Source: a virus
Virus record (IMG/VR): IMGVR_UViG_3300009610_000040
Location: 1 to 46,672 of that record
Length of the DNA stretch: 46,672 nt
Direction: 5' to 3' (one strand)
Below, in pieces: positions 7,812 through 32,363 of the stretch. Numbering within the stretch: the first letter of the stretch is position 1; every line of letters begins with the position of its first letter. The position numbers and the translations under genes are program-made. The notes below the pieces were generated by a model. The model ran no database searches and was not told the DNA's origin. It was given only the letters and a program-made list of their open reading frames with translations.

Positions 7812-10228
7812 CCGACCGTGACCAGGAAGTCGTAGGCAATCTCTGAAACGCACCCAATGCACATCAGGTGCATGGCGATTCGATCCCCGACAGCCCAGCT
7901 GATGTTCTTTGCGGGAATCTGATTTGGAAGGTCCAGACTAGCTACATAGTCGGTGTTGCTGAGCACCGTTGCGGCCACATCCAGGTCCTCAACAAAGTTC
8001 TTCGAAAAGCGCACCGTCACATTCTGACCCGAGAGATCAGGCAGCGGAGCCCTCTCTGGGTTGCTGTCGTCGTAGACAGTCACGGTCACATTGCGGACGC
8101 GAACACAGGCAAACGGAGCCCCAATCTCGGCGTTCAGCCGGTCATTAACCATCTCGCCGTTCATCTGGTTGGCCCAGTTGAAGCCAGAGGGCTCATCCCC
8201 CTCCTGGAGAATGAAGTCGTTGGCCTTGAACAGGAAGTTCGTCGGAATCGTGGAGATGCTGAGCCCGCCCGCGCTCTCAATGTCCGCTTGCGTGAGGGTC
8301 CACTCCAGGTCGGGATCGACATCAATCATCAGGGTCTGATCGAAGTCCTCCGAGAACTCCATGGTGGGGCCTTCTTTGACGATCACCACCGGCTCCGTAG
8401 CGATGGCTGGAAGGTCAAAGGTGTCTACCCAGCTGATCGTAGCCCCTCCACCTTCTCCGCCGCCACCCAGGGCTATTTCCTCCCAGATGTTGGCGCTCGA
8501 GTCCCACCTGAACAGGATGCCCTCGTTCTCAGTGACGGTCCTGGAGGTGTTCCCAAAGAGCTGGATGTTGGTGTCTGGCTCGTCATCGTCGTCCTGAAAC
8601 GTGAGCGAAAAGGCGCTCTCGTTGACCACGAAAATGAGGGTGCCGTTGGCATCGTCCTCAGGAGCCCCAATCGTTGGGGTGCCATCCAGCACCATGGGGG
8701 AGCCGGTGATGTTCGAGACCTGAATCAGCGACGAGTCCGTGGTTGGGATCTCATCGTCGGTGGCGTCAATCAGCACCAGCGTCGGCACAATCGAGATGGT
8801 CTGCACAAAGTCGGTGTCCCCAAGGAAGCTCTTGTCCCCGGCAAAGCCTTGGGCCACATCGGTCACTCCACCTTGGTCAATGCCGATGCCCGCGTTGGGA
8901 ATGTTCAGCACATGGGTGGCCCCAAACGAGCTCCAGTTGGGACTCGTCCCAGCGTTCCCGTTGTCCAGGAACTGATGGACGCCGGGGAGGCCGTTGATGC
9001 TCATGACGCCAACAATCGAGCCGCCCACCTGCCACCACTTGCCTCCGGTGTACATGAGGGTCATAGCCTGGCCGTTCGCCAGCGTCACCGACTCGTTGTT
9101 GAACAGCTCCATGTTCGATCCGGGAAGGTCCGACTCGTCCTCAAAAGTGACGGAGTCTGCGCTCAGCACGGCCAAGATGCCGATGGTGCCGTCGTTGGGC
9201 GCGTTCAGCAGGTGCGGCTCCGAAATCATGACCAGATCGTCGCCTGAGGTGTTGGTCACCTTCATGAAATTGGAGGTGAAGCCCAGGGTGGTATTGTTCG
9301 CGGCCAGCGAGATGGAGCTGGGCTCGAACGCAATCGCTCCCCCGAAGTTCTTTGCTCCCTCAAAGGTCTGGTTTCCTGTTGAAACGAGGCCCCTGGCCGT
9401 GTCCGAGGCATCCGGGATGCAGAACTCGTGGTCGTCGGTGGTGCTGGTGATCTCAAAGTCGGTGCAGGTGTCAGCCGTCGAGAAGGTCTGCGTCGTGGCC
9501 GTCAAGGCGTTCAGGGTGGTGATGCCGCTCCCGGCTTCGCCCAACTGATCGGAGGCGCACGCCCACTCGAACGGGCTTGCCGAGGCTTTCAGGACCTGCC
9601 CATCGGCGCAGTCCTGGAGCCCCATGGTCTTGGCCTCCGAGCCGAAGGTCGCCAGCCCGCCATCAGGAGCAAGGCCAGTCACATATTCACCGATTGTTTC
9701 GGTTTCGAGGGTGATGCAGTCTGTGCACACCAGGTCCGTCCCAATGGTGGTTACGCCGCTCAGGGTCTTGTCGCCGTCAATAGTTTGGGTGCCGAAGTTG
9801 ACTACACCCCTCACATCGGGTGCTGCATCCGGGAGGTGCCAGGTGTGCGTGCCTGCGGCACTGGTGATGGCGAAGTCGGAGCCCACGGAGTCCACTTCGA
9901 AGGTCTGAAGGGCATCTGTCTCGCCATTCATCGAGGTGATCCCCGCCCCTCCTCCCCCCGCCCCAACCTCCTGGTAGGCCCCTCCGTTGATGCTCAGCTT
10001 CAGGAGGTTGTCATTCGAGTCGCAGGCCAGGGTCATGCGGCTGCTCTGCGAAACCGCTGGCAGAGCCCGGCAGGCCATGTTGAGGGACCACCTGTCTCCT
10101 TGGGAGCTCCTCTCAAACTTGAGAAAGGACTCGCTCTGGGAGCTGATGGTCATGTTCTGGGCAGAATGCCCCGCCGCGTGCGAAGGCAGCAGGGCCAGCA
10201 GCAAAGCCAGCAGCCAGAGCCGTCTCAT
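7802..10228 (-). CDS. Tail-fibre-like protein with repeats and signal peptide
   Basis: An 808-residue protein with ATG at 10228 overlapping the preceding stop as ATGA. Residues 1-23 form a Sec-type signal (MRRLWLLALLLALLPSHAAG). A fibre repeat occurs three times, at about 96-165, 235-302 and 408-476: a GI(T/S)xxN start, QTF, an FxIxS..H.xxxP-(D/N)-A core, then (R/Q)G...G(x)KxF. Between copies lie two related modules that contain PNDGTIGILAVL / PEDDANGTLIFVV and end in GGKWWQVGG / SANIWEEIA. This repeat style is common in phage tail fibres. The C-terminal part (about 600-808) looks distinct and may be a tip or chaperone-like domain. A signal peptide on a fibre is unexpected. Confidence 0.8.
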   Translation of the reverse strand: MRRLWLLALLLALLPSHAAGHSAQNMTISSQSESFLKFERSSQGDRWSLNMACRALPAVSQSSRMTLACDSNDNLLKLSINGGAYQEVGAGGGGAGITSMNGETDALQTFEVDSVGSDFAITSAAGTHTWHLPDAAPDVRGVVNFGTQTIDGDKTLSGVTTIGTDLVCTDCITLETETIGEYVTGLAPDGGLATFGSEAKTMGLQDCADGQVLKASASPFEWACASDQLGEAGSGITTLNALTATTQTFSTADTCTDFEITSTTDDHEFCIPDASDTARGLVSTGNQTFEGAKNFGGAIAFEPSSISLAANNTTLGFTSNFMKVTNTSGDDLVMISEPHLLNAPNDGTIGILAVLSADSVTFEDESDLPGSNMELFNNESVTLANGQAMTLMYTGGKWWQVGGSIVGVMSINGLPGVHQFLDNGNAGTSPNWSSFGATHVLNIPNAGIGIDQGGVTDVAQGFAGDKSFLGDTDFVQTISIVPTLVLIDATDDEIPTTDSSLIQVSNITGSPMVLDGTPTIGAPEDDANGTLIFVVNESAFSLTFQDDDDEPDTNIQLFGNTSRTVTENEGILFRWDSSANIWEEIALGGGGEGGGATISWVDTFDLPAIATEPVVIVKEGPTMEFSEDFDQTLMIDVDPDLEWTLTQADIESAGGLSISTIPTNFLFKANDFILQEGDEPSGFNWANQMNGEMVNDRLNAEIGAPFACVRVRNVTVTVYDDSNPERAPLPDLSGQNVTVRFSKNFVEDLDVAATVLSNTDYVASLDLPNQIPAKNISWAVGDRIAMHLMCIGCVSEIAYDFLVTVGCR

Positions 10229-10893: not shown

Positions 10894-11574
10894 TTAAGAA
10901 ACAAGCATCTCCTCAGAGTCCTTGCGTTTGTTCTGGTCTTTGAATTTGAGGCGCTTCATCCGGTACTCCTGGACGCGCCTCTCGATGATCCAGGCCGGTG
11001 CCCCGCTCTTGCGGAGGTACCTGGCCATGTTCTCGATTTCGTCGTCATCCTGCTCAACTTTTGCGCGCTTGGGCAGCATGCTGATGGCCGAAGACAGCGC
11101 ATCGACAAGGTCGAACGTGGCTGACATGGGGTGGGTGGCCAGCTCCTCCTCGAGCTCGAGCTGCCCATCTTGGAGGAACAGTCGGCCCTGCGCGATCATG
11201 GGCTGCAAGGCAGCACGGTTGCGAAAGGGCTTCTCAATCTTGTTGGGCTGCAACACCTTCACCAGGGGGATGCGCACGTTCGTCAGGCGCGCTTCGCGAC
11301 GGACGCCGTCGCCAAAGAGGCTCTGCATGCCGTTGGCCTCGATGCCAAACTTGGACGGAGTGAAGGTGGAGTTGACCCAAAAGATCTTCTCGTAGAGCTT
11401 GTCCGTGCTGGTGCGGTCGGCCCAGGCGTACATGACGAAGATGCGGTCCAGCCAGTCCCTGGCCACCACGACGATGGCGCTCCGCGCTTGCTGCTTCTTG
11501 ATTTGGGACTTGCCGCCTGCGGGGTCGCAGAAGGCGGTCCAGTCAACCAGGTCCTCGACTTTGATGGGCTCCAT
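10894..11574 (-). CDS. Terminase large subunit, nuclease half (split gene)
   Basis: A 226-residue protein matching only the C-terminal RNase H-like nuclease of a large terminase, the part that cuts concatemeric DNA at packaging start and end. Acidic residues sit where expected: D17 in AFCDPAGG, E79 in FGIEANGMQSLF, and D155/D158 in ATFDLVDAL. There is no Walker motif. The ATPase half is a separate gene upstream (11,804-12,988), and a small membrane-protein gene lies between. ATG at 11574 overlaps the small gene's stop as ATGA, so this is a true independent start. The halves probably reassemble as a complex. The C-terminus is Lys/Arg-rich. Confidence 0.8.
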   Translation of the reverse strand: MEPIKVEDLVDWTAFCDPAGGKSQIKKQQARSAIVVVARDWLDRIFVMYAWADRTSTDKLYEKIFWVNSTFTPSKFGIEANGMQSLFGDGVRREARLTNVRIPLVKVLQPNKIEKPFRNRAALQPMIAQGRLFLQDGQLELEEELATHPMSATFDLVDALSSAISMLPKRAKVEQDDDEIENMARYLRKSGAPAWIIERRVQEYRMKRLKFKDQNKRKDSEEMLVS

Positions 11575-11804
11575 CAGTCTCGATTCTTGTAGCAGCAGAC
11601 CTTGAGCTCCTTCTGCATCTCCTCGATGACTTCGGCGTAGTGCTCGCGGCCCTTCTGCTCGAGCTGCACAGCCTTGACGGACTCGTTCAGCTGCGCTACC
11701 CGCCCCAGGGCAGCGGTGAACCCGACCGCCAGGAGCACATTCAGGACGTTCAGGAGGATCTTGATGACGAAACTCAAGTCCATCTTCCCGTTCGAGGGTC
11801 CCAT
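11574..11804 (-). CDS. Small membrane protein with coiled coil, inside terminase locus
   Basis: A 76-residue protein with ATGA overlaps at both ends (with the ATPase gene before and the nuclease gene after), a strong sign that it is translated. Residues about 8-34 form one membrane segment (LSFVIKILLNVLNVLLAVGF), followed by a helical, heptad-like part (AQLNESVKAVQLEQKGREHY) and a short Cys-Cys-containing tail. The layout recalls Rz-type inner-membrane spanins or small holins, but it is short for a spanin and no outer-membrane partner is obvious. Function is inferred only. Confidence 0.75.
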   Translation of the reverse strand: MGPSNGKMDLSFVIKILLNVLNVLLAVGFTAALGRVAQLNESVKAVQLEQKGREHYAEVIEEMQKELKVCCYKNRD

Positions 11805-12988
11805 CAGCCCAAACGCAGCCTCCGACCCCCCAAGTGCTCCTTTCGGGCCTTGAAAAGGTCGAAAATCTCGCCTGTCTTAACCACTTTTCCGAACTTGGGG
11901 GGCGGAATGGCGTTCACATCCGGTGAATTTGAGGCTCGCTCCTCCAAAACGGCGTCCAAAGTGTTCTCGTCGAACCTGAGCAGCCCATTTTCGATGCTGA
12001 ACCGCCTAATCAGGTTCATATCGAAGTCAGTCAGCTCCGGATCAGCCGCAGAATTCATGTAAAGCAGGGAGAACAGGGAGCCCAGCTCGTCCTTCAGCCG
12101 CTGCAAGGTGACCAAGGAGAACATTTCGGGAAAGATAGGCTCCCCGCCCTCCACTGCTTTGCGACAGATGACTTCGACAGTGGGGTCGTTGCGCTCGATG
12201 TAGGAGTACAGGTCGTGGACAGCCCAGCGGGTGCCGATGATGATCTCCAGACTCTTGTCTGGGTCGTCCATCAGGGCGCGGCTGGTCTTGTGCCACTCGA
12301 TGGCGTTGTACATGAGCGTTGGCGAGTTTGCGGCCTCCAGGGTCACCAGATCGTCCTTGAGCAGAACGTCGTAGTGGCGGCCAGTCACAGCGCCGCCCAC
12401 GCCGATGGTCTCGATGGAGGCCTCCGGGTACTCCTTGTTGCGCGGGATCATGATTTCTTCGCCGTTCCACTTCTTGGATTCGCGGCGCGCATTGTCCCAC
12501 ACGCGGTGCGGCCAAAAGGCCCGCAGCAGCTCGTTAGCCTCCAGCTGGATCATGATCCATCGGAGTTGGTGCTGCGCGTTGGTGGCAGTCTCGTTGGCGA
12601 GGAGGATGCGCGTGTTACAGCCTTCCATGCCTGGGAAGTAGGGGTTGGAGTCCGCATTCTGTAACAGGATGTGAAGCACCAGGGCTCGACACATCGAAGT
12701 CTTCAGGTGATCGCGGGGCATCAGGAGGAGCTTGCGGTACGGCGGAAACCGCGAGAGGAATCTGCACGCAGGCAGGTGCAACGATTGGGTCAGCCGGTCC
12801 AGCCCCAGAATGCCTTTACCGAAGACGAACAGGTCTGCTTCGGCTTTGGCCCGGAACTCCTCTACGAAGGAGCCGGGGATCGTGGCACCTGCCTGGCGTA
12901 CTTCTCCACCCTTTGTGATAACGAATTCGACGGGCTCAACCCGATCAGCGAAGGGGTCGCCTCCGGCGTGGGGCTCAGGGGAGCTCAT
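11804..12988 (-). CDS. Terminase large subunit, ATPase half (split gene)
   Basis: A 394-residue ATPase of the DNA-packaging motor. ATG at 12988 is chosen because GAGGAGG lies 9 bases upstream; a longer frame has no such site. Visible motifs: a Walker A-like PRDHLKTS at 91-98, Walker B YDVLLKDD at 206-213, and the coupling motif IIGTRWAVHDLY at 250-261. After SLLYMNSAADPEL (about 307-319), where a fused nuclease domain would normally begin, the protein continues for about 75 residues and stops. The nuclease is a separate downstream gene. It overlaps the small-terminase gene by 14 bases. Confidence 0.85.
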   Translation of the reverse strand: MSSPEPHAGGDPFADRVEPVEFVITKGGEVRQAGATIPGSFVEEFRAKAEADLFVFGKGILGLDRLTQSLHLPACRFLSRFPPYRKLLLMPRDHLKTSMCRALVLHILLQNADSNPYFPGMEGCNTRILLANETATNAQHQLRWIMIQLEANELLRAFWPHRVWDNARRESKKWNGEEIMIPRNKEYPEASIETIGVGGAVTGRHYDVLLKDDLVTLEAANSPTLMYNAIEWHKTSRALMDDPDKSLEIIIGTRWAVHDLYSYIERNDPTVEVICRKAVEGGEPIFPEMFSLVTLQRLKDELGSLFSLLYMNSAADPELTDFDMNLIRRFSIENGLLRFDENTLDAVLEERASNSPDVNAIPPPKFGKVVKTGEIFDLFKARKEHLGGRRLRLG

Positions 12989-13658
12989 CGGCAGCGGCCT
13001 CCTCGGCCTGCATGGCTGCCTCCACCTCAGCGAGGGGCCAGGGCTCCTCGAACGTGGTGGGTTTGAAGGGGACGGCAATCGGGGGGCCTGCTGCGACTTC
13101 GCGCAGCGCTGCCTGCATGCGGTCCAGCGAGTCGCGGTCGATCACCAGGTGGTGCGTCCGTTCCTCGTGCACCTCGCGCTTCTTGGGGATCACGCGGTCC
13201 ACGGCGTCCTCGATTTGCTTCGCAGCCATCAGGCGCACGCGGGGGTCGTCCTGGTGCGAGGCCGGGTTGTCGCGCATCTGCACCAGGAATTCGAAGTTGG
13301 GGCCAGCCTCAGCAGTAATTCTCTCGAGGAGCTGCGCGACCGTAGCGGTGCGCAGGGCTTCTCGCTCTTGGGCTAGGCGCACCTGAAAGAGGGGGGAGTT
13401 GATGATGCCGGTGATAGTTTGGGGATTGACACCGATGTCTAAGGCGATGTCTTTGGGCTTCCGCCCAAGGAGCACCTGGTAGAGGATCATCTGGTTGCGG
13501 TCGCTCCAGCGCTTGATGCGCTGGACGGTGGATGCGGGGTCGCGCTGGTGCGCGGTTTCGCCGGGGGGCCAGCCGTTGGCCGCACGGGCAGCGATGGCGT
13601 CCTCCCGCGAGGGAACACGCTCCTGCTGGGTGCGTCCGGGCCGGGTTACTCGTTCCAT
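12975..13658 (-). CDS. Terminase small subunit-like protein
   Basis: A 227-residue protein from ATG 13658; GTG at 13733 would add 25 residues, and neither start has a clear ribosome site, so the N-terminus is uncertain. A helix-turn-helix-like segment (QVLLGRKPKDIALDIGVNPQ) is followed by a long helical region (LLERITAEAGPNFEFLVQMR; KQIEDAVDRVIPKKREV) and an acidic Ala/Glu-rich tail. This architecture and its place directly before the large-terminase ATPase match small terminases, which bind the packaging start site and regulate the motor. It is the first gene of the left late operon. Confidence 0.7.
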   Translation of the reverse strand: MERVTRPGRTQQERVPSREDAIAARAANGWPPGETAHQRDPASTVQRIKRWSDRNQMILYQVLLGRKPKDIALDIGVNPQTITGIINSPLFQVRLAQEREALRTATVAQLLERITAEAGPNFEFLVQMRDNPASHQDDPRVRLMAAKQIEDAVDRVIPKKREVHEERTHHLVIDRDSLDRMQAALREVAAGPPIAVPFKPTTFEEPWPLAEVEAAMQAEEAAADELP

Positions 13659-14708: not shown

Positions 14709-16256
14709 TTAGCTACGCTTCATGCTGTAGTTTGCTGCCTTCAAGAAGGCCAGAGCCTCCACGAAGTCGTTAGCCCTGTAGATGCCGTGCTGGTCACAGA
14801 CACCATAGCAGGCCTTCCTGAGTTCCTCGTGAGAGCTCTCAGACTTGCCTGTCACCATCCCATCGCTGAGCCACACCAGCGGCTTAGACTGCTTGGCCAA
14901 CCACACCAAGCTAGGGAAGTCCACGATGTTGCCACCATGGGCATTGGGATGCTGCAAGGGAGTCTTAGAGATCTTGCCCTCCCAAGAGATAATCCGCAGC
15001 TCCCCCTCATCCCCAGAGCCAGCATAAGTAGCTATGCGAGCCATAGGCAGGTGCTGCAAGATGGTGTTGAGATCGTTCTCAGTGAGCGACATAGACCCAC
15101 TGTAGTCGATCAAGAGCGACCCTCCAGGCTTCCTACGCTTCTCAGCGAAGATCCGCCCATCGCTCATGAACCTGGCCATGTGCTTGACCAGAGCACCCTC
15201 ATCACGGGGCCTCGAACCAGCCCTAACCTGGCCACAAGAGGGATGCGGTACACCGTCCTTGAGCGGCATGATGGTCAAGTGCCCCGACATCTCAAAACCA
15301 CCGTCCATGATCTTGGTTTTGCCATGCGGCTTGCCATCGGTTTCGCTCTCAAACTCCTCTCCACCCTTGGCCCAATGGACTCTCATCTCATCTCGACGCT
15401 CCAAGAGACTCGGATCAGGTGGAGGCAGGCCCAACAAGGCCTCAGCACTGCCCCCCTTGGGCCTCGTGAGGTGGAGCAGCTCATCGGTCTTGAACACCTC
15501 ATCCATGCCCCCAAGCACCTCATGAATGCGCCTGAGAATGGCCTTGGTCCACTCGAAGTTCTCGAGCTTCTCCTTGGACTCCTTAGGCTCCTTGTCCATG
15601 TGGACAAAGCAGGCAGCCAGAATGTGCTGAATCCAGCTAGGCATCGCATTCCTCATGCTGCTCACAGGCAGCAAGGGAGTGTCGTTGTAGATTTGAGAGA
15701 CCTCCCTGTTGAGAGTAAAGCCACCAGCATGGTACCTCAGCTTGTGAGGCTGCAAGAGGAACCTAAAGAGCAGCAGCACAATGAAGTGTGCCATCCCTCT
15801 TTGAGAGTAAAGGGCATCCAGGGCAGCCGCCTTAAAGCCGTACCTGATTGCCTCATCCCTCTCAGGAGTCACCCTAGCCATCTCCCCAAAGACCAGGTCG
15901 CTCAAGAGGCCGAGCCTGAGATCCTCAGCCGCTTGAACCAGCTCCTCAGTCAGCTCGTACTGGGCAGCCAGCTCAGAGGGCTTCACGTCCCTCGGAGTGT
16001 ACTTGGAGTGCAGCATCTCGTGACACTGCCCATAGCGATCCTGCTCTGTAGCTGCTCTGACCTGCATCCTACGCTCTTGCAAGTCAGTCTTGCTCTGGCC
16101 TCCCTCCCTGACATCCCATTGCTCTCCGTCAAGGGCATTGGGGAGAGGCAGCGGCAAGTAGCCCGGCTGCCCCTCCTCCTTGACCCAAGCTGAAGTAGGC
16201 ACCTTGCGCCTAACCTGCCTCAGCATGTTCTTGGTCCTCGCCTTGCTTGTAGGCAT
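14709..16256 (-). CDS. VWA-domain protein with HExxH motif (CobT-like partner of MoxR ATPase)
   Basis: A 515-residue protein. The C-terminal third is a von Willebrand A domain with the metal-site motif LLIDYSGSMS (D384, S386, S388) and a second acidic motif VWLSDG (D465). The N-terminal region has CHEMLHSKYT with HEMLH at 79-83, a zincin-like HExxH that is also seen in phage proteins called CobT-like. The middle is helical with a hydrophobic stretch near 155-170. The ATPase gene lies immediately upstream, one base apart. Family knowledge: MoxR AAA+ proteins and VWA proteins work as pairs to remodel or load metals into targets. The target in this phage is unknown, and true cobalamin synthesis is unlikely. 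Confidence 0.8.
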   Translation of the reverse strand: MPTSKARTKNMLRQVRRKVPTSAWVKEEGQPGYLPLPLPNALDGEQWDVREGGQSKTDLQERRMQVRAATEQDRYGQCHEMLHSKYTPRDVKPSELAAQYELTEELVQAAEDLRLGLLSDLVFGEMARVTPERDEAIRYGFKAAALDALYSQRGMAHFIVLLLFRFLLQPHKLRYHAGGFTLNREVSQIYNDTPLLPVSSMRNAMPSWIQHILAACFVHMDKEPKESKEKLENFEWTKAILRRIHEVLGGMDEVFKTDELLHLTRPKGGSAEALLGLPPPDPSLLERRDEMRVHWAKGGEEFESETDGKPHGKTKIMDGGFEMSGHLTIMPLKDGVPHPSCGQVRAGSRPRDEGALVKHMARFMSDGRIFAEKRRKPGGSLLIDYSGSMSLTENDLNTILQHLPMARIATYAGSGDEGELRIISWEGKISKTPLQHPNAHGGNIVDFPSLVWLAKQSKPLVWLSDGMVTGKSESSHEELRKACYGVCDQHGIYRANDFVEALAFLKAANYSMKRS

Positions 16257-16257
16257 C

Positions 16258-17013
16258 TCACTCCTCCGAAGCCAGCCTCAGAGCGTCGAACACCGCCGCC
16301 CCGTCCGGCCCCCAAACCACCTTGCAGGCCAACTGCTCCTTGTCCTTGAGTGCTCCAGGCAGGTTCTCAACCAGGGTCACGAAGTTCTCCCAACCCCGGA
16401 AGCCCACCTGCCTCACAACGTGCTCAAAGTCCCTGGCCGAGCAGCCCTTGAACATGTTTTCAGCCACCTGCTGGTACTTCTTGGGCAGGGTCTTGAACGC
16501 CTCGGGAGCCGGAGCAGCGATGAACAACTGCGCTCCCAAGCGGCTCCTGAGAGCCTCCGGCAGGTCCTCCGGGATGCCGTTCATGGTGGCGATGACCCTG
16601 TGAGGGAACTTCACCTCCAGGTTGGGCTTCTGCATGTCGCCAGTGGGCAGAGTCACAGCCGCCTGATCCGGTGGGTCCAGCACCGCAAACAGGAAGCTCA
16701 GAGCGTCCGCAGACGCCTTGTCGATCTCGTTCAGCACCAAGAGGCCGCCCTGATCCCACCACCTCAGGCAAGGGCCGTCCAGCCAAGCGAACTCACCCGG
16801 CCCAGAGGGCACAAAGTGCCCCCTGAGCTCCGCTGCCGGGGTGTCCTCGGTCATGGTCAGGGAGAACCAGGGCTCCTCCTTGGCCAGGCTCTTGAACGCC
16901 GCCCGGCTCTTGCCGGTCCCCGGAGGGCCGTACAGCACAGCCCTCTGGATCGCCTTCAGAACGCTCAGAACCTGCGGCCATGTGACCAGCTTCGCCTTGT
17001 TGTTGTCGCTCAT
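16258..17013 (-). CDS. MoxR/CobS-type AAA+ ATPase
   Basis: About 251 residues from ATG 17013; a GTG at 17022 overlapping the previous stop (GTGA) would add three residues, but its AAGGAG site is only three bases away. Numbered from the GTG, Walker A is GPPGTGKS at 32-39, Walker B LLVLNEID at 94-101, sensor 1 in VIATMNG near 148, and an arginine-rich ALRSRL near 157-162. NEIDKAS and the short length fit MoxR-type ATPases. The VWA gene follows directly, the usual MoxR/VWA pairing. It probably hydrolyses ATP to remodel a protein target. Confidence 0.85.
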   Translation of the reverse strand: MSDNNKAKLVTWPQVLSVLKAIQRAVLYGPPGTGKSRAAFKSLAKEEPWFSLTMTEDTPAAELRGHFVPSGPGEFAWLDGPCLRWWDQGGLLVLNEIDKASADALSFLFAVLDPPDQAAVTLPTGDMQKPNLEVKFPHRVIATMNGIPEDLPEALRSRLGAQLFIAAPAPEAFKTLPKKYQQVAENMFKGCSARDFEHVVRQVGFRGWENFVTLVENLPGALKDKEQLACKVVWGPDGAAVFDALRLASEE

Positions 17014-17018
17014 AACGC

Positions 17019-17192
17019 TCACCCTCTCCTTGTGGGGCTTTTACCCACCTTTGCGCTGTATGCAGCGCCCTTCTTGTTGCGGTACTTGGATGCTTGCCGA
17101 CCAGTAGGCAGCACCCCGGCCTCTGTGCAGTGTCGCTGGAACTCCTGGTCTTGGGCAGCGAAACTGCGATTCGTGTAGACCTTGTCTGCCAT
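17019..17192 (-). CDS. 57-residue basic protein upstream of MoxR ATPase
   Basis: A short gene starting MADKVYTNRSFAAQDQEF from ATG 17192, with GAGAGGAG four bases upstream, and ending in KVGKSPTRRG. It is basic, with a Lys/Arg-rich centre (GRQASKYRNKKGAAY) and a single Cys. It fills the space between the coiled-coil gene and the ATPase gene precisely. No known family; nucleic-acid binding or adaptor roles are possible. Confidence 0.7.
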   Translation of the reverse strand: MADKVYTNRSFAAQDQEFQRHCTEAGVLPTGRQASKYRNKKGAAYSAKVGKSPTRRG

Positions 17193-18184: not shown

Positions 18185-18474
18185 CACTCTTTGACCTCCT
18201 TGGCCTTCTCAAGCTCCTCAATCACATGCTCTCCAGCCCACTTGAACACCTCTCGCATGCTCTTGAAGCGGTAAACGCCGAAGCGGCTCATGTCGCTCAT
18301 CCACGACACTCCGGTCGTCATGAACAGCACAGCCACCACCACCGACCACACCAAGCTCTCCTTGGTGATCCAGAAGCACAGCACTAGAGCACCAAGCATG
18401 TATGAGTCGTTGATTACGCTCTCCCACCAACGCTCTCTGAGCACCACTACCGTCCTCTTGCTACCCTCTGCCAT
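18184..18474 (-). CDS. Two-helix membrane protein
   Basis: A 96-residue protein with two likely membrane segments, YMLGALVLCFWITKESLVW (residues about 25-43) and VVVAVLFMTTGVSWM (about 45-59), between charged ends. The C-terminus is amphipathic and Lys/Glu-rich (FKWAGEHVIEELEKAKEVKE). ATGA overlaps link it to both neighbours. It could anchor the coiled-coil and ATPase proteins of this operon to the inner membrane, but that is inference from context. Confidence 0.75.
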   Translation of the reverse strand: MAEGSKRTVVVLRERWWESVINDSYMLGALVLCFWITKESLVWSVVVAVLFMTTGVSWMSDMSRFGVYRFKSMREVFKWAGEHVIEELEKAKEVKE

Positions 18475-19013
18475 CAGTGCCTCGTCTCGCTCTCAGGGTC
18501 CACCATGACGGGACCCATCGCCATCTTGAGCACCATGCCCAAGTTCTTGTGCAGCTCGCTCACCTTGGCCACAAACTGCGCCTTGCTGCCCACGTCGTCG
18601 ATGGACTCCATAGCCAGGCTCAGGAGCACGTCCATGCACAGGCTCTCAGGAGTCCAGTTCTTGGTCTTGTCGATGGCGTTGACCGCTTGAGCCGCCTCCT
18701 GCATCAGCGACCCCAAAGCGTCCCTGAGGTCCTTGGGGTGCGCCAAAGAGGGCTCCAAGAACACCGACCCCAAGATCCGGGTGTTCCTGGTGCCGTCCTC
18801 GTCCACCTTGGGCGTCTCCACACTGCACACCTCCAGGTAGAGACCGCCCTTAGGCTTAAAGCCCTCAGCGGCGCACCTCGGCATGAAGCCCCCCAAGTTG
18901 TCCTTCTGGGCCTCAAAGTGCTCTCTGACCTTGGTCATATCCACGTCATCCTGACCATCAGCCTCGATCATGATGCCCTCTCCACCACTGCTCTTGAACT
19001 TTGTGTGCTTCAT
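18474..19013 (-). CDS. First gene of MoxR/VWA operon, unknown function
   Basis: A 179-residue protein with ATG 19013 preceded by AGGAGAGAGG. The N-terminus is acidic and polar (EGIMIEADGQDDVDMTKVRE), followed by a beta-like segment (GGLYLEVCSVETPKVDEDGT; GSVFLEPSLAHPKDLRDAL) and C-terminal helices (MLKxx-style; KMAMGPVMVDPESETRH). No membrane segment. As first gene of the minus-strand operon it may be made earliest and most. Family unknown. Confidence 0.75.
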   Translation of the reverse strand: MKHTKFKSSGGEGIMIEADGQDDVDMTKVREHFEAQKDNLGGFMPRCAAEGFKPKGGLYLEVCSVETPKVDEDGTRNTRILGSVFLEPSLAHPKDLRDALGSLMQEAAQAVNAIDKTKNWTPESLCMDVLLSLAMESIDDVGSKAQFVAKVSELHKNLGMVLKMAMGPVMVDPESETRH

Positions 19014-19232: not shown

Positions 19233-19304
19233 ATACGCACCCCCACCCTAATACGCTCCGCTAATACGCCTCGGCTCATACGCACCGTTGCTAAACAAAT
19301 ACGC
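19233..19304. repeat. Iteron-like array of five ATACGC hexamers
   Basis: ATACGC starts at 19,233, 19,251, 19,264, 19,278 and 19,299, all in the same orientation (GCGTAT on the other strand, mostly followed by KAG or TTG). Spacing is 13-21 bases. Five copies in 72 bases is far more than expected by chance, and this is the pattern of binding-site arrays for a replication initiator or a regulator. Confidence 0.55.
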
Positions 19305-19308
19305 ATCC

Positions 19309-19334
19309 GGGGGGTGGGGAGGAGGGGGGTGGGG
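19309..19334 (+). other. G-quadruplex motif
   Basis: The plus strand has G6-T-G4-AGGA-G6-T-G4, four long G runs with very short loops, which satisfies the standard quadruplex motif strongly. It lies 8 bases before the first arm of the nested inverted repeat. It might block polymerases, mark a primer site or fold the control region. Confidence 0.6.
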
Positions 19335-19341
19335 ACCCCGC

Positions 19342-19629
19342 CAGGAAGAATCAGGAAGAATCAGGAAAGATTTTTTCGCCTAACTCCAGGCGCCACAACG
19401 AAAAACCAATTTTTCTGATTTTTCTGCCAGCTATAGCCCAACCGGCCCCTCACACGCGAAAGAGCCCCCTACAGTATAGCATATATATATATCAATAAAT
19501 GATATACTAAATTAATAGGAATCGTGTACGAGGGGGCGGGACCCACCAGAAAAATCAGAAAAATCACTTTTTGAGGCCCGCATTGAACTTACGCGAAAAA
19601 TTCTTCCGAATTCTTCCTGATTCTTCCTG
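19342..19629. repeat. Nested inverted repeat around an AT-rich core
   Basis: Outer arms: CAGGAAGAATCAGGAAGAAT at 19,342-19,361 is a perfect 20-base inverted copy of 19,610-19,629, each continuing imperfectly into TTTTTCGC on the inner side. Inner arms: ATTTTTCTG twice at 19,409-19,426 is a perfect 18-base inverted copy of 19,547-19,564. Both pairs share a midpoint near 19,486. Within each arm the units are tandem repeats of 10 or 9 bases. The core (about 19,471-19,520) is almost only A and T, with AGTATA/TATACT. The symmetry suggests bidirectional origin firing or symmetric control of both divergent operons. Confidence 0.8.
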
Positions 19630-19653: not shown

Positions 19654-19682
19654 TTGACAGGCATTTCGAGGTTTGCTATCGT
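19654..19682 (+). promoter_or_regulatory. Sigma70-type promoter for the plus-strand early operon
   Basis: TTGACA (perfect, 19,654-19,659), 17-base spacer, TATCGT (19,677-19,682, 4/6). Predicted start near 19,689, about 22 bases before ATG 19711, which has AAGGAG upstream. It is just outside the right arm of the nested inverted repeat. A host RNA polymerase promoter fits the absence of a phage RNA polymerase gene in the window. Confidence 0.75.
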
Positions 19683-19710: not shown

Positions 19711-19947
19711 ATGCAAAAATCCGCTCCAGAAGTCATCGACGAGATCGGGACCATCGGTCTAAAGTTGACTCAAGAAACCTCCGTGGACCGGCTCTTGGTC
19801 CTCGGGATTTCCAAAGAAGGGCTCAGCATCAGCTCAAACATCTGCTGCAACCGCCACCTACGCCTAGCCCTCCTAACCTCAGCCCTCATGATCGAGGACA
19901 ACGACGAGCCCATCTCAAAGCACCTCGTAGACCTCACCGAACACTAG
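19711..19947 (+). CDS. Early protein, paralogue A of a small family
   Basis: A 78-residue protein; ATG 19711 has CACAGGAAGGAG upstream and follows the promoter closely, so it is the first protein made from this operon. A core beta-strand-like motif VDRLLVLGISKEGLSISSN is followed by a helix with RLALLTSALMI. The same pattern (V-hydrophobic-IG(L/I)-x-x-(E/D)G...SN plus helix) occurs in the next gene and, more weakly, in 23,244-23,480, so these look like duplicated genes. Possible host take-over factor; function unknown. Confidence 0.75.
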   Translation: MQKSAPEVIDEIGTIGLKLTQETSVDRLLVLGISKEGLSISSNICCNRHLRLALLTSALMIEDNDEPISKHLVDLTEH

Positions 19948-23766: not shown

Positions 23767-23897
23767 GCAGACCCAAATCACACAAGTCCAAGAAGCAGGT
23801 GGGGCTCCTCCTTTCGGAGGGGTCCCCCCTCACCAGGGAGCAGAAAGCCAAACTCAAGCGCGAGCTACACTCAGGAGCAGTGAAGGTCAAGAAATGA
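23763..23897 (+). CDS. 44-residue basic protein
   Basis: MSRPKSHKSKKQVGLLLSEG and onward, rich in Lys and Ser, from ATG 23763 with an ATGA overlap at the start. The end overlaps the next start as ATGA. Strongly basic and probably unstructured; a nucleic-acid-binding or small regulatory role is possible. Confidence 0.6.
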   Translation: MSRPKSHKSKKQVGLLLSEGSPLTREQKAKLKRELHSGAVKVKK

Positions 23898-24472
23898 GAG
23901 ACAACCACGACATCGTACTTCAGGAGAACCTACCTCCTACACCTGAAACCACTGAGTGGGTCAACATCGTCTACTTGAAAAGGAAGAACAAGCCAGCGTG
24001 CTCGCACCGAGTCATCCACAAGCTGTGCGAAAATCGCATGTACGTAGCTTGCGGGCGCCTCATGGAACTTAACAGACCATCCTACATGATCAAGAGAACC
24101 TGCTCCTCTGTGGCGGAGCACGAGTTGTGCAGCAGGTGTGAGAAGGCTATTCTCAACCCCGACCTAATCAAGCTGTTCAACGACACCGCCCTGCGTGAGG
24201 AGCACTACCAACAGGTGGAGGAGGACCGCCAGGCCCAAGCCAAAAAGATCGTGCCCCAATTCAAGCCGGTGTCTCCCAAGGAGTGGGCCGAGCGCCTTCT
24301 ACGCCTGCGTACCTACCTCAACTTCTCTCAGGCCGAGCTGGCCGACACCTTGGGAATCACGCCCTCCACCATCTGGCGCTGGGAATCAGGAGACGTGCTG
24401 CCCAGCAAGCTGGCCTTCTACGCTGTTGCCTACTTCCAAAATAGATTGAACGAGAACGGAGACCCAGAATGA
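23894..24472 (+). CDS. Xre-type HTH regulator with Cys-rich N-terminus
   Basis: A 192-residue protein. Residues about 131-185 form a classical HTH domain (SQAELADTLGITPSTIWRWE), typical of phage and plasmid regulators. The N-terminal part has seven Cys/His (C36, H38, C45, C53, C70, C79, C82), the last as C-x2-C, which could form a zinc site. The middle is helical (residues 87-120). Position deep in the early operon suggests a control protein for middle or late gene switching. An operator candidate is the CCTCWGAGG pair near 14,500 or the nested repeats near 19,490; neither is tested. Confidence 0.75.
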   Translation: MRDNHDIVLQENLPPTPETTEWVNIVYLKRKNKPACSHRVIHKLCENRMYVACGRLMELNRPSYMIKRTCSSVAEHELCSRCEKAILNPDLIKLFNDTALREEHYQQVEEDRQAQAKKIVPQFKPVSPKEWAERLLRLRTYLNFSQAELADTLGITPSTIWRWESGDVLPSKLAFYAVAYFQNRLNENGDPE

Positions 24473-25529: not shown

Positions 25530-25591
25530 CCAAGTCCGCGTCTGCGGACATGGCACTAAAACAAACAGCACGCCAGCCACAGGAGTCTCAA

Positions 25592-26584
25592 ATGGCAATG
25601 ATCGTAGACGGTGTCTACTACGTAGATAACTCAACCTTGAAGGCGGTGGCCAGGTGCGACACAGACGCCTACCTACAGTACGTGTGTGGCTACCGCCTCA
25701 AGCAGACCGAAGAACGAGCCCCCCTCAAATCAGGGACAGCCATCCACGAGGCCCTGGCCACAGCCTTCCGCGCCATGGCCTCTGGCTCGAGCGCCCTGGA
25801 GGCCCAGATCCTGGGCTTCGAAACCCTCACCAACGAATATCGGGATTGGGCGCTGGCCGAGATCCCCCCGAACGACCGCCTGGGCTGGCCCAACATCTCC
25901 AAGCTCTACAACGCTTGGTGCGAAGTCCAACTCGGCAGCCTCCCCTTCTACTTCACCGACCCCCGCATGGTGGAGATCGGCTTTGCCCATCCCCTCGACG
26001 AGGACGGCGAGTTCGTTTTCTACGGGCGGATGGACGGCATCGCCAACCACGTCATTGACGATTCCTGGGTGGTGGTCGAGCACAAGACCACCGGGCGGAT
26101 GGACTCCCTTTGGGCCAACCAGTGGCACATGGACAGCCAGGTCAGCGGCTACATCTGGGCCGCGCAGCAGCACAACCCCGAAGTTTTTGGGTGCATCATC
26201 AACGGCATCGAAACCAGCCTTCTTCCTTCGGACGAGAAGCGCAAATGCAAACTCCACGGGGTGCCCTATTCTGAATGCGGGACCTGGCCAGACCATTTGA
26301 AACGCCGTCTCAGCGGCCCCATCACCCGGACGCCCGAGCAAATCCTCCAGTGGAAGAAGACCGCACTACAGCTAGCCCGTCGCTTTCAGCAGATGCACAA
26401 GATGTTGGGGGTTGACCCCAAACAGGTTGAAATGCTAGCTATGCAGGGCATGTTCAACGCCTCCTGCAAGTGGTGCAACGTCCGTGACTTCTGCTCTGTA
26501 GGTAGGCCCATTGACAGAATTGACAGCATGTTCGAGTATGCACCCTGGACTCCATACGACCCACTCCAATTCAAAGCCTCTTAA
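25592..26584 (+). CDS. RecB/Cas4-like PD-(D/E)XK nuclease
   Basis: A 330-residue protein from ATG 25592, which has CCACAGGAG 7 bases upstream (an upstream in-frame ATG lacks this). It shows the PD-(D/E)XK set: GTAIHEA (H52), GRMDGI (D148), VVVEHKTTG (E163, K165) and QVSGY (Q183), the order of RecB/Cas4 nucleases. Cysteines C22 and C292, C295, C301 (C-x2-C-x5-C) could hold a 4Fe-4S cluster, as in Cas4 and AddB. It likely acts as an exonuclease in phage recombination or DNA processing, together with the Sak4-like ATPase and SSB-like protein downstream. Confidence 0.85.
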   Translation: MAMIVDGVYYVDNSTLKAVARCDTDAYLQYVCGYRLKQTEERAPLKSGTAIHEALATAFRAMASGSSALEAQILGFETLTNEYRDWALAEIPPNDRLGWPNISKLYNAWCEVQLGSLPFYFTDPRMVEIGFAHPLDEDGEFVFYGRMDGIANHVIDDSWVVVEHKTTGRMDSLWANQWHMDSQVSGYIWAAQQHNPEVFGCIINGIETSLLPSDEKRKCKLHGVPYSECGTWPDHLKRRLSGPITRTPEQILQWKKTALQLARRFQQMHKMLGVDPKQVEMLAMQGMFNASCKWCNVRDFCSVGRPIDRIDSMFEYAPWTPYDPLQFKAS

Positions 26585-27068: not shown

Positions 27069-27830
27069 ATGCAAACAGAACCTATCCACGTCATCTGCTA
27101 CGGCGACTCGGGTGCTGGAAAGAGCACCTTCGCTGCCACCTTCCCAAGGCCGCTGCGGGTCTGGCTCTTTGACGAGTTCGGCAAGAGCAGGCCCTACCGG
27201 GCCTCGGGCGGCGAAGTCGAAGACTACGTAGACGACTTCGGCACCAACTGCACCAGCATCGACGCCGGAACTGACAAACAAGTTGTGATCGAAAAGTACT
27301 TTGACTTCGATCCCAGCACCGGCGAGTCCAGCGGCTTCCACCGCTTCCTGCAAAGGCGCGAACGCTACCTCAGGTCCAAGGCGTGGCAGGACGACGCCAC
27401 CCTGGTGGTGGACTCCGTGACCTTCATGGAGCTGGCCGCTCGCAAGTACGACCAGCACGTCACCAACAAAACTGCCCGTGACCCCCGCCAGTGGTTCGCA
27501 GCCAGCACAGATGCCCTTGAGGACACCCTCATGGTCAAGCTGATGGGCCTCCCCATCAACGTGGTGGTGCTGGCACACATCGACGAGGAACGGGACGAAG
27601 TCCACGGTGCAATGGTCTTCAACCCCTCTGCTCCTGGACGCCTCAAGAAGCGCCTCCCCTCAGCCTACGGGGAGTTCTACAGGGCCTATGCCACCCGCGA
27701 CGAGGCTGGTGATCCGGCCTGGGCTCTCCAGACACGCTCCGACCGGCGCTACAACGCTGCTTCGCAGATCGGAGCCCCAAACCCTTGCTACCCACACTAC
27801 CAAGAGTTGTGGATTCCCCCAGCTCTCTAA
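27069..27830 (+). CDS. Sak4-like RecA-fold ATPase
   Basis: A 253-residue protein from ATG 27069, after CCACAGGAGG. Walker A GDSGAGKST at 12-20, Walker B LVVDS at 112-116, and a later Ser/Asp-His pair (VVLAHIDEERDEV). The pattern and size fit phage Sak4-type single-strand annealing/strand-exchange ATPases, which work with a phage SSB. The next gene is SSB-like and the upstream gene cluster has an exonuclease, which supports a recombination role. No DNA-packaging or helicase motifs are present. Confidence 0.8.
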   Translation: MQTEPIHVICYGDSGAGKSTFAATFPRPLRVWLFDEFGKSRPYRASGGEVEDYVDDFGTNCTSIDAGTDKQVVIEKYFDFDPSTGESSGFHRFLQRRERYLRSKAWQDDATLVVDSVTFMELAARKYDQHVTNKTARDPRQWFAASTDALEDTLMVKLMGLPINVVVLAHIDEERDEVHGAMVFNPSAPGRLKKRLPSAYGEFYRAYATRDEAGDPAWALQTRSDRRYNAASQIGAPNPCYPHYQELWIPPAL

Positions 27831-28687: not shown

Positions 28688-31141
28688 ATGCCCCGAATCG
28701 TAAAGGATGAGGGACCGCTCTCAGCAAAGATCGTCCTCGTGGGCGAAGCCCCCGGCAGGCAGGAGGACGAGTCAGGAAGGCCCTTCGTGGGCAAGTCCGG
28801 AGCCAAGCTCGAGTACTGGTGGCGCCAGGTGGGGCTCCGCAGGAGCCAGATCTACATCACCAACGTCCATCAGGAGCGCCCACCCGAGAACAAGATTGCA
28901 GCTATCAGCCCCTCCGTGATGGCTGCCAGCATCGACTCCCTCCACGAGAGGCTTGCCCTCCTGGAGGACCCCAATGTCATAGTTCCAACGGGCAACACAG
29001 CCCTCCAGGCTCTCACCGGCCAGCGCTCCATCACCAAGTACCGAGGCAGCATTCTCAACTACATTGACCACAACGGTAGGCACATCAAGGTCATCCCCAC
29101 CATCCATCCGGCTTCGATCTTCCACATGATGAAGACTGGAAACCCTGGAAGGGTTGAGAAGCACTGCCTCGCGGACTGGCAGAGGATCGCAAACGAAGCC
29201 GCTTCGCCCGAGTTCAACCTCCCAGAGAGGCACCATGACATCCTCCCAACCCACAAAGAGTGCCAGGACTACCTGGAGGAAGTGAGGGACCTTGGACCCG
29301 GCGAAGCCCTCTCCGTCGATATTGAAACTGCCCAAGGCAAGATCCTTTGCGTTGGGTTTGCCTTCCAGAACGACCGCTCCTTCGTCATCCCCCTGGAGGA
29401 CAAGAGGCACTGGAGCACAGACCGCGATGTGCACCGGGCTCGCGAAACGATTGAGGAGATCTGCGGCACGCAGGTCCCCAAGATCCTACAGAACGGGCTC
29501 TACGACACCTACTGGCTAGCTCAGCTCTACGGCATCGACGTTCGCAACTACGTCTGGGATGTGAAGGCCATGCACCACACCTTCGACCCAGTCGATGACC
29601 ACAGCCTGGCCTACATGCAGAGTGTCTACACGAGGGAGCCCTTCCACAAGGACGAAGCCAAGGACCCAGACAAGGTCTCAGCCTATGCCAGCAACCTACA
29701 TGCGTTGCAAACCTACTGCGGCCTAGACAACTGTGTGCAGCACGAGCTGTACGAAGTGTTCCACGGACGCCTCATGGTTGAGGAACTTCTCGACTTCTAC
29801 CTGGAGCTCTATCCAGACCTGTTCCAAAGCATCTTGCACATGATGATGGGCGGCATACGCACAGCGTCTTCGACGCGGAAGCTGGCGCACATGCGCATCC
29901 ACTCCAGGCTCATCGAGATCCAGGATGCCCTGTCTGGGCTGCTAGGCGAAAAGATCTACGCCAAAACAGGCTTGAGCCCCATCAAAATCAGGAAGCTCCT
30001 GTACGAGAAGCTGGGCCTCCCAGTGCAGCGCAACCGCCAAACAGGCAACGTCACCACCGACGAAGTCGCTCTCCTAAAGCTGAACATGACCCACCCGGCT
30101 GAGGCCCAGCCAGCCATCCCCCTGATTCTGGAGCACCGCAGGCAGAGCCACCTCATGCAGTTTTTCGATGAGGGGGCCACGGACCACGACGGCTACATCA
30201 GGTGCGAGTACACAACCACCACCGAAGCGGGGAGGCTGGCCTCCAAGTCCAATCCCCTCGGCACCGGGCGCAATCTCCAGAACGTGGATCGCGAAGTCCG
30301 CGATACATTCCTCCCCGATGAGGGCCACATCTTCCTCGAGGCCGACCTTAGCCAGGCCGAGAGCAAAGTTGTCTACGTGTTGAGTGGCGACCCCGAACTA
30401 ATCAGGCTGGCACAGTTGCCTAGCTGGGAGTTCGATCAGCACACTTACAATGCTGCTCAAATCTTTGGTATCTCCGAGAAGGACGTAACAAAAGCGCAGC
30501 GGGACTTCGGCAAGAAGACCGTCCATGGAGCCCAGCGGGGCCTGCGCGGAAAGAAGATGTCCGATGGGCTCCTCAAGGACGGCTACGTTGTAGACTCCGT
30601 AGAGTGCGACGCCAAGCTAGATAGGTACCTCAAGAAGTTTGACATCGAGCGCTACTTCAAGTGGGTGCGCAAGCAAATGGCCATGCGCCGCCGCCTTCAG
30701 AACAGTTGGGGCCGCATCTGGGACATCACCCACGAGCGCTTCGGGGACGACCTGTTCAGGAGGGGCTACAGCTTCCTGCCACAGTCGGAGGTAGCAGACC
30801 TTCTGAACATGTGGGGCCTCAACCCCACTGTGAAGCTACTGGATTGCCCTAAGTATTCAAAGTTCGATGTACTGCCAGCCAGGGTGTGCGCCCAGATCCA
30901 CGATGCCATCCTCGTTTCAACTCCTCCTGACGAGGCCTATGACATAGCCACCTTCATCCAAAAGAGCCTTGAGCGCCCCCGCATCTACTTTGGAGACACC
31001 AAGCACGGAGTGCCCCTCACCATCGGAGTCGAGTTCAAGATCGGCACCTCCTGGAAGGGTACCTACAGCTTCAAGAGGCTGCCCAGCCGCGACGAGTTCA
31101 ACGACCACGTAAGGAGACTAGTGGATGGCTCTGTCAAATGA
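28688..31141 (+). CDS. UDG-like / 3'-5' exonuclease / family A DNA polymerase
   Basis: An 817-residue replicative DNA polymerase. Residues 1-180 are a family-4 uracil-DNA-glycosylase-like domain (GEAPGRQED at 19-27, GRPFVG at 30-35, HPASIF at 140-145) that lacks the four Fe-S cysteines of true family 4. An exonuclease domain follows with DIE 211-213, NGLYD 269-273 and Y343...D347. The polymerase domain has TTTTEAGRLASKSNPLGTGR, motif A LEADLSQAE (D553), motif B RDFGKKTVHGAQRG near 605-618 and motif C QIHDAILV (HDA at 738-740, instead of the usual HDE). AGGA precedes ATG 28688. The combination resembles SPO1-type polymerases as I recall them. Confidence 0.85.
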   Translation: MPRIVKDEGPLSAKIVLVGEAPGRQEDESGRPFVGKSGAKLEYWWRQVGLRRSQIYITNVHQERPPENKIAAISPSVMAASIDSLHERLALLEDPNVIVPTGNTALQALTGQRSITKYRGSILNYIDHNGRHIKVIPTIHPASIFHMMKTGNPGRVEKHCLADWQRIANEAASPEFNLPERHHDILPTHKECQDYLEEVRDLGPGEALSVDIETAQGKILCVGFAFQNDRSFVIPLEDKRHWSTDRDVHRARETIEEICGTQVPKILQNGLYDTYWLAQLYGIDVRNYVWDVKAMHHTFDPVDDHSLAYMQSVYTREPFHKDEAKDPDKVSAYASNLHALQTYCGLDNCVQHELYEVFHGRLMVEELLDFYLELYPDLFQSILHMMMGGIRTASSTRKLAHMRIHSRLIEIQDALSGLLGEKIYAKTGLSPIKIRKLLYEKLGLPVQRNRQTGNVTTDEVALLKLNMTHPAEAQPAIPLILEHRRQSHLMQFFDEGATDHDGYIRCEYTTTTEAGRLASKSNPLGTGRNLQNVDREVRDTFLPDEGHIFLEADLSQAESKVVYVLSGDPELIRLAQLPSWEFDQHTYNAAQIFGISEKDVTKAQRDFGKKTVHGAQRGLRGKKMSDGLLKDGYVVDSVECDAKLDRYLKKFDIERYFKWVRKQMAMRRRLQNSWGRIWDITHERFGDDLFRRGYSFLPQSEVADLLNMWGLNPTVKLLDCPKYSKFDVLPARVCAQIHDAILVSTPPDEAYDIATFIQKSLERPRIYFGDTKHGVPLTIGVEFKIGTSWKGTYSFKRLPSRDEFNDHVRRLVDGSVK

Positions 31142-32363
31142 CTACCTCCCGGATCACGAACCACCAACCTTCATCAACTGTTATGTCCATGCTGCTGGAG
31201 AGTCGAAGGCTCCAGATGAGTTCAACCTTTGGATGGCCCTCTCCCTGGTTGCAGCCTGTGTCGGTAAGCGGGTTTGGTACGAGAAGTTTAAGGATTCCAA
31301 ACTTTACCCTAACCTATACACAATGCTTGTTGGGGTTTCGGGTGGCGGTAAGGGGACGGCTATCAAGAGGGCAGTCTCCTTTCTAGGGCACCTAGACGCA
31401 GACACCCTGGAGCGAATCTCTTACTTCCGAGGCAAGACCACTCCGCAAGCCCTGATCACTTACATGTCGGAGGACATTGTCAAAGAAGGTGTCACCGTGC
31501 ACTACGCCAAGACCTGGGTCTGGTTCGTCGTAGGCGAGCTGGCCATGCAGGTGGGCGGCGGGCCGAAGGCCGACGACTTCATCAAGCACATGACCGAACT
31601 CTATGAGGGAGACTATGAGTTTACTGAAGCCACTCGTATGTATGGGGTCCACCGCATCAAAGACCCTTGCATTAATTGGACCTCAGGCTCCACCAAGGAG
31701 TGGCTGGTGGGCTCGATTGGCAAACAAGACATCCTGTCAGGATTCTTTGCTCGAGTCTGCGCTATTCCTTGCCCGCGCAAAGAGAACTGGAGGGACTATC
31801 CAGATCCGATAATGCCCCCTGACTACGACTCCGTTAATGCTTGGTGTGTAGAGTTCATCAAGCGCCTCGTCCACCAAGAGGGGCGCATGCACTTCGATGA
31901 GGAGGCCGCAGCCTTCAGGCGCATGTGGTACGTCTCCAGGCCTGACCCCACCGAGGAGTTGCTCTGGCCCTTCTTCGAACGCCAGGACGACCACGTCATC
32001 AAGCTGTCCATGCTCCTGGCCCTGGCTGACGGGCGCATGACCATGATCAAACGAGACGTAGAGGAAGCCGTCGAGCTGACCATGATGGTCTACAGCAGGC
32101 TGCCCCAGCTTCTTGAATACGCACACAGAACCCCAGAAACCGAGATGATGGCCTGGCTCTCCGAGATCCTCCGCAACAAAGGAGGATGGATCTCCCACTC
32201 AGCCCTCTTAAAGAAGGCCTCCAACCGAGGAGCGAACAAGACCAAGTTCTCTGAGTTCATCAGCACCCTCATGGAGAGGGGTGATGTGATCATGGCTTCC
32301 AAGAAGGGTACCGGAGGCAAATACTATTGCTGGCACACCTTCAAGAAAGCCGAGATCCCCTAG
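31125..32363 (+). CDS. DUF3987-type ATPase (helicase/primase-like)
   Basis: A 412-residue protein from ATG 31125, overlapping the polymerase end by 17 bases, with AAGGAG 8 bases upstream. Walker A is GVSGGGKGT at 70-78; further conserved-looking parts include VVGELAMQVGGGPKADDFIK and WLVGSIGKQDILSGFFARV, which resemble DUF3987 proteins annotated as phage helicases or primase-associated ATPases. The C-terminal part is a winged-helix-like segment (SALLKKASNRGANKTKFSEF). It probably acts with the polymerase at the fork. No separate DnaB-type helicase is visible in the window. Confidence 0.7.
   Translation: MALSNDYLPDHEPPTFINCYVHAAGESKAPDEFNLWMALSLVAACVGKRVWYEKFKDSKLYPNLYTMLVGVSGGGKGTAIKRAVSFLGHLDADTLERISYFRGKTTPQALITYMSEDIVKEGVTVHYAKTWVWFVVGELAMQVGGGPKADDFIKHMTELYEGDYEFTEATRMYGVHRIKDPCINWTSGSTKEWLVGSIGKQDILSGFFARVCAIPCPRKENWRDYPDPIMPPDYDSVNAWCVEFIKRLVHQEGRMHFDEEAAAFRRMWYVSRPDPTEELLWPFFERQDDHVIKLSMLLALADGRMTMIKRDVEEAVELTMMVYSRLPQLLEYAHRTPETEMMAWLSEILRNKGGWISHSALLKKASNRGANKTKFSEFISTLMERGDVIMASKKGTGGKYYCWHTFKKAEIP

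Follow-up and report, generated by a model that had tools for sequence, protein, structure and literature searches.

A 288-bp locus at positions 19,342-19,629 of a 46,672-bp virus record (the window, meaning the whole stretch of DNA analysed) is an inverted duplication of about 115 bp around an AT-rich core and forms a near mirror image. Its symmetry is beyond chance, it coincides with the softest DNA of the contig, and it recurs in related phages with unrelated arm sequences, in one relative (G005) as mirrored DnaA-type boxes. We propose that the locus is probably the bidirectional origin of DNA replication of this phage, in which a DNA unwinding element is flanked by initiator sites in mirror image. 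This reading is favoured because of the softness of the core, the occurrence of the same design in relatives and the mirrored DnaA boxes of G005. To our knowledge, the origins of most environmental phages are unknown, and our search of the open-licence literature found no description of the element for this phage group.

Architecture of the element

From the outside to the centre, the element consists of 10-bp repeats, 9-bp repeats, a third, GC-rich pair and a small core hairpin. Its parts and the features that adjoin it are as follows.

19,233-19,304, plus strand: five ATACGC copies, possible accessory sites, directly left of the element
19,309-19,334, plus strand: G-string GGGGGGTGGGGAGGAGGGGGGTGGGG, read in the sequence, adjoining the left outer arm
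19,342-19,373, plus strand: left outer arm, 10-bp units CAGGAAGAAT CAGGAAGAAT CAGGAAAGAT, the third degenerate; inverted partner at 19,600-19,629
19,409-19,426, plus strand: left inner arm, 9-bp unit ATTTTTCTG in two copies; its 18 bp match 19,547-19,564 perfectly in inverted orientation
19,441-19,456, plus strand: left third arm, GC-rich, pairing with CGTGTACGAGGGGGCGG at 19,523-19,539 in the gapped flank alignment and the long hairpin fold
19,469-19,528, no strand: AT-rich core, proposed DNA unwinding element; the contig's softest 60-mer by nearest-neighbour stability
19,473-19,482/19,499-19,508: short core hairpin AGTATAGCAT/ATGATATACT, inside the AT-rich core
19,523-19,539, plus strand: right third arm, GC-rich, from the gapped alignment of the flanks
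19,547-19,566, plus strand: right inner arm, 2.2 copies of CAGAAAAAT
19,600-19,629, plus strand: right outer arm, ATTCTTCCGA ATTCTTCCTG ATTCTTCCTG
19,654-19,682, plus strand: sigma-70-like promoter (TTGACA-17-TATCGT) for the early operon that runs rightward, some 25 bp beyond the right outer arm

The initial annotation had described two perfect inverted pairs with a shared midpoint near 19,486, arms built of 10- or 9-base tandem units, and an AT-only core. Both pairs are present where it placed them: the outer, of 20 bp, joins 19,342-19,361 to 19,610-19,629 (midpoint 19,485.5) and the inner, of 18 bp, is centred at 19,486.5. Tandem arrays were likewise found on all four arms, with 2.6 copies of CAGGAAGAAT in the left outer and three of ATTCTTCCTG in the right outer arm, and two copies of ATTTTTCTG facing 2.2 of CAGAAAAAT in the inner arms. 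The description fell short in extent, as the symmetry runs through the whole 288 bp and includes the third pair and the core hairpin, and it overstated the composition of the core, which is AT-rich (88% AT in its best 40-mer).

When the left flank was aligned with the reverse complement of the right flank, the symmetry extended without a break between about 30 and 145 bp from the centre, and the spacers between the repeats also matched across the two arms. A scanner for concentric inverted repeats scored the locus at 55.9, whereas 4.1 Mb of locally dinucleotide-shuffled sequence reached at most 18.2. As a single strand, the 288 nt form one long hairpin in which 96 of the 98 pairs join the two arms (DNA z -11.3). 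Similarity that is continuous rather than confined to isolated sites is not explained by protein sites alone. Since the spacers match as well as the repeats, a function as a cruciform is conceivable, and the hairpin would be expected if its shape, as extruded DNA or as a long structured RNA, were the active principle in place of repeated binding sites. We nevertheless regard such a shape-based function as extremely unlikely. Conservation is strongest in short tandem units, the pattern expected of binding sites, Rfam gave no match at 18-21 kb of the contig, and the mismatches between the arms (GT 64, AC 82) have no wobble bias for either RNA strand. The last point suggests that selection has apparently acted on the DNA rather than on a transcript, and a function at the RNA level was rejected on this ground.

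In a nearest-neighbour profile of the whole contig, stability is lowest between 19,469 and 19,572, in the core and just to its right, whether windows of 40, 60 or 100 bases are used. The melting profile, which had been put forward as a check on the locus, thus bears out the core as the softest DNA of the contig, and at all three window sizes the core has the property looked for in the AT-rich unwinding element of a replication origin. Since the symmetry scanner leaves out the 20 bases to either side of the centre and allows for local composition, the softness of the core is independent of the repeats.

Recurrence in relatives

Relatives of the phage were found with an alignment of its DNA polymerase, which carries a uracil-DNA-glycosylase-like domain (UDG-PolA), and four phage homologues; this recovered hundreds of related IMG/VR contigs. 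Single-protein scans of IMG/VR with PolA or the left-flank protein recovered no relatives, and no DNA similarity to phage records was found. Comparison with relatives had also been suggested at the outset: the arm sequences of the window are absent from them, and in their place relatives carry their own version of the element. Neither of the two refuting conditions named at the outset, lack of both repeat pairs in relatives or skew that places the origin elsewhere, therefore fits the case squarely. The same architecture is found in several of them, with arms that are unrelated in sequence and differ from phage to phage. In G043 TTTATAGAAAAGTTTAGGT/AAAGTTTAGAAGTTTAGG are nested around a TATATA core, in ctMlz233 GCCATTTCC occurs twice on each side, and in G017 there are five nested arms built of a unit that is palindromic, as is typical of dimer sites. 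The closest relative, G002, whose terminase is 53% identical to that of the window, shows at the corresponding place an AT core between weakly mirrored flanks (Z 3.7).

We also applied a test blind to symmetry, in which the five softest 60-mers of each contig were taken and their flanks aligned as mirror images and compared with resampled flanks, a match being a score of at least 30 with a Z of at least 8. By these thresholds, which were fixed after the first results had been seen, 15 of the 37 contigs of the UDG-PolA group passed (14 of 36 without the window) and 22 did not. None of 19 random IMG/VR viral contigs, a control drawn afterwards, passed, nor did any of seven named phages (lambda, T7 and P22, and PaP2, PMBT14, Aeromonas P5 and Kuura, these four with related polymerases). 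The Fisher p is 1.3e-4 (14/36 versus 0/26), or 8.7e-4 against the 19 random contigs, and is to be read with the fact that the relatives, metagenomic contigs and phage records found via one gene, are not statistically independent. In four genomes (Mel-JY34, G005, G022 and G024) the scanner found an element that fell below the symmetry-blind criterion, because it lies too near the end of the record or because its core is not among the five softest points. Mel-JY34 is a phage of Microcystis, and its element is placed at about 44.2 kb of the record. The element is therefore common in the polymerase group without being universal. No gene family significantly separated the genomes with an element from those without. 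The high symmetry score of G004 came from a low-complexity AT repeat (Z 3-4) and was left out of the count, and scanner matches in coding sequence, for example at 17.2 kb in G002, were discounted as inverted repeats of the ordinary kind.

The length of the locus and its inverted ends resemble those of a small inverted-repeat element, which could suggest an insertion-like element bounded by terminal inverted repeats, or else a site of integration. We consider this scarcely credible, as the locus is single-copy within the contig and the arms differ in every phage, yet the position and the core persist; moreover, no integrase was found among the annotated genes of Mel-JY34, ctMlz233 and ctLwi270 or the scanned genes of the window.

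The exact 20-mer of the outer arm occurs in two other IMG/VR contigs. One (L003) has no mirrored element in the stretch read around the 20-mer. The other (L004, IMGVR_UViG_3300047160_035466) carries at 5,199-5,248 about four direct copies of the 10-bp unit AGGAAGAATC, as in the arm of the window; these stand upstream of an early operon that runs leftward and encodes a Sak4-like ATPase, and the contig is otherwise different.

DnaA boxes and strand skew

In G005 the arms are made of DnaA-type boxes, four on the minus strand to the left of the centre (-146, -113, -102, -91), matched in mirror image by five to the right on the plus strand (+85, +97, +108, +138, +150), and these account for 9 of the 14 DnaA-type boxes of that contig. 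The minimum of GC skew lies 70 bp from the centre of the G005 element. Clustered DnaA boxes, the criterion for a DnaA-box oriC, are thus found in G005 and not in the window, which has no DnaA box within 350 bp of the element and one in the whole contig; ctLwi270 has a single DnaA box.

Cumulative skew had been proposed as a further check on the locus, and its outcome is divided. In the window the AT-skew and purine minima lie at 19.2-19.3 kb, beside the element, and the plain GC-skew minimum lies elsewhere, at 42.5 kb, so that it fails there as a locator of the element. Among 20 genomes, the cumulative AT-skew minimum is no farther from the element than 5% of genome length in 16, and the GC-skew minimum in 10. 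Skew decides little here, because it tracks the coding strand and divergent transcription gives a similar skew.

Genomic setting

The genes of the contig are podovirus-like and include a portal, a terminase large subunit and internal virion proteins. As first noted from the sequence, the element lies where two operons diverge, between a leftward gene (18,474-19,013), the genes running to the left from 19,013, and a rightward gene whose ribosome site was read in the sequence and whose ATG is at 19,711. The ATACGC cluster to its left holds five of the contig's nine copies on either strand, a concentration of modest significance, as some 6-mer reaches five copies in 73 of 3000 shuffles. Several other features of the contig deserve mention. 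The terminase large subunit is split, on the minus strand, into two ORFs (10,894-11,574 and 11,804-13,078) with a small ORF between them (11,574-11,804); the two match the N- and C-terminal parts of phrog_38, and the gene is split likewise in G002 and ctLwi270. At 14,709-17,022, also on the minus strand, a MoxR-like AAA ATPase (16,258-17,022) stands beside a 515-aa protein; G001 has homologues of both, and there the gene for the ATPase is near the element. At 2,967-7,862 (minus strand) lies the gene for a protein of 1631 aa that contains long Pro/Thr-rich repeats and matched no family.

The initial annotation had offered three readings of the locus, a bidirectional origin, a symmetrical switch, or a site where a protein loops both promoters. 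We favour the first, and the other two, taken together as symmetric operator arrays through which a phage regulator loops or co-represses the diverging operons, seem to us unlikely. The position between leftward structural and rightward early genes, shared by the window and several relatives, would suit such a regulatory hub, as would the sigma-70-like promoter outside the right arm, the gene for an HTH regulator in the early operon (23,894-24,472), whose product the initial annotation had put forward as a candidate binding protein, and the dimer-type palindrome of G017. The promoter came from a consensus scan in which shuffles yield 1.4 such sites, which makes it weak on its own; it is the single good one, lies outside the arms and has no mirrored partner. 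Furthermore, the elements of Mel-JY34 and ctMlz233 lie among annotated rightward genes, operators have no need of the softest DNA of a genome, and the mirrored DnaA boxes of G005 point to initiation.

The position of the element also bears on DNA packaging. The pac site of P1 has groups of hexamers on both sides, and the repeats could in principle be recognised by terminase on both sides of a cut region. In G005, G022, ctLwi270 and G016 the element is a few kilobases from the terminase genes, as it often is, and in Mel-JY34, G047 and G024 it lies 223, 303 and 670 bp, respectively, from the end of the record. A packaging site is very unlikely all the same, since the terminase genes lie at no fixed distance (about 1 to 8 kb), and in the window, G002 and G020 the large terminase gene is about 4-8 kb away. 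Most elements are internal, four of the five contigs with repeated ends having theirs at least 3.6 kb inside, and packaging would leave both the DnaA boxes and the softest core unexplained.

Replication genes and proposed mechanism

The bidirectional origin that we favour would lie upstream of a rightward operon that carries the HTH regulator and a replication module.

25,550-26,584, plus strand: PD-(D/E)XK nuclease (PF12705, E 6e-15)
27,069-27,830, plus strand: Sak4-like AAA ATPase (phrog_124, PF13479)
28,688-31,141, plus strand: DNA polymerase A with N-terminal uracil-DNA-glycosylase-like domain (PF03167 at residues 7-150, PF00476)
31,125-32,363, plus strand: DUF3987 ATPase, candidate replicative helicase (PF13148, predicted MCM-like fold)

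UDG-PolA is present in all 41 genomes compared, being the gene used to find them, and the DUF3987 protein, the nuclease and the Sak4-like ATPase are present in most of the 41. An earlier study predicted DUF3987 to act as a helicase on the basis of its domain association with primases (PMC5862659). The AlphaFold2 model of the window's protein (pLDDT 83, pTM 0.77) has MCM helicases as its closest solved folds (Foldseek E 1e-8 to 1e-6); compared with MCM chains (VIA) it gave a Z of about 20 over 261-352 aligned residues at 9-15% identity. By sequence, the DUF3987 profile had no convincing match in the PDB, and no MCM among its matches. The protein is thus predicted, at the level of fold, to have the MCM AAA+ fold with a C-terminal winged helix. 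The scanned genes of the window, many of the early ones without any match, include no known initiator family and no recognised Orc1/Cdc6.

We infer from these observations that initiator binding, melting, helicase loading and origin activity occur at the element. An initiator, either a phage or a host protein, would bind the repeated sites mirrored on both sides of the AT-rich unwinding element. With both arms bound, the core would be strained and opened, and two helicases could then be loaded at the opened core facing apart. The likely helicase would be the conserved DUF3987 ATPase, and the UDG-PolA protein the likely polymerase.

A broader proposal, possible although we hold it to be doubtful, is that this group of tailed phages has a mirror-symmetric origin whose sequence changes rapidly and whose geometry is fixed. 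Two MCM-like (DUF3987) hexamers would be loaded facing apart, as at archaeal and eukaryotic origins, and the arms would co-evolve as one inverted repeat, such that the specificity of the initiator could be replaced with the symmetry kept. In MCM loading, two hexamers are placed head to head as a double hexamer (PMC6742236). As a geometric criterion, mirror symmetry about the softest DNA locates candidate origins with no need for a conserved sequence, and it ties them to a replication module with an apparently MCM-like helicase. It also offers a direct test of whether bacterial viruses use symmetric, double-helicase style initiation, and it raises the question of how the arms remain alike during sequence turnover.

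Comparison with known systems

Iteron-type theta origins, such as the lambda ori and those of RepA-type plasmids, share with the element short tandem repeats by an AT-rich region near early or replication genes. Unlike them, the element has an array in mirror image on each side, and no initiator gene was recognised. By annotation, the origins of lambda and P22 lie inside the initiator gene, that of lambda having four iterons that point in one direction; neither genome gave a symmetry match in the scan or the soft-point test. The version in G005 resembles a bacterial oriC with DnaA boxes by an AT-rich core, except that its boxes are mirrored on both sides, and the arms of the window are not DnaA boxes. 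In its fold the window's DUF3987 protein resembles the MCM/DUF3987 helicases of mobile elements, from which it differs in standing alone, with no primase domain recognised.

The origins oriS and oriL of herpes simplex virus have inversely oriented binding boxes, an AT-rich spacer and stem-loop potential (PMC12543377). The element shares inverted arms about an AT-rich spacer and the potential to form a stem-loop; it differs in its larger span, its tandem units, its unrelated sequence and the lack of a recognised UL9-like protein. In archaeal origins an AT-rich element is flanked by recognition boxes in inverted orientation (PMC3528665, PMC5333045). The phage departs from an archaeal-type oriC in its tandem 9-10-bp arm units, its bacterial-looking promoter and the lack of a recognised Orc1/Cdc6 gene. 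It resembles that type in the mirrored arrays flanking an AT-rich unwinding element, which may serve as recognition boxes, in a G-string beside the repeats, as at haloarchaeal origins, and in a helicase whose predicted fold is MCM-like.
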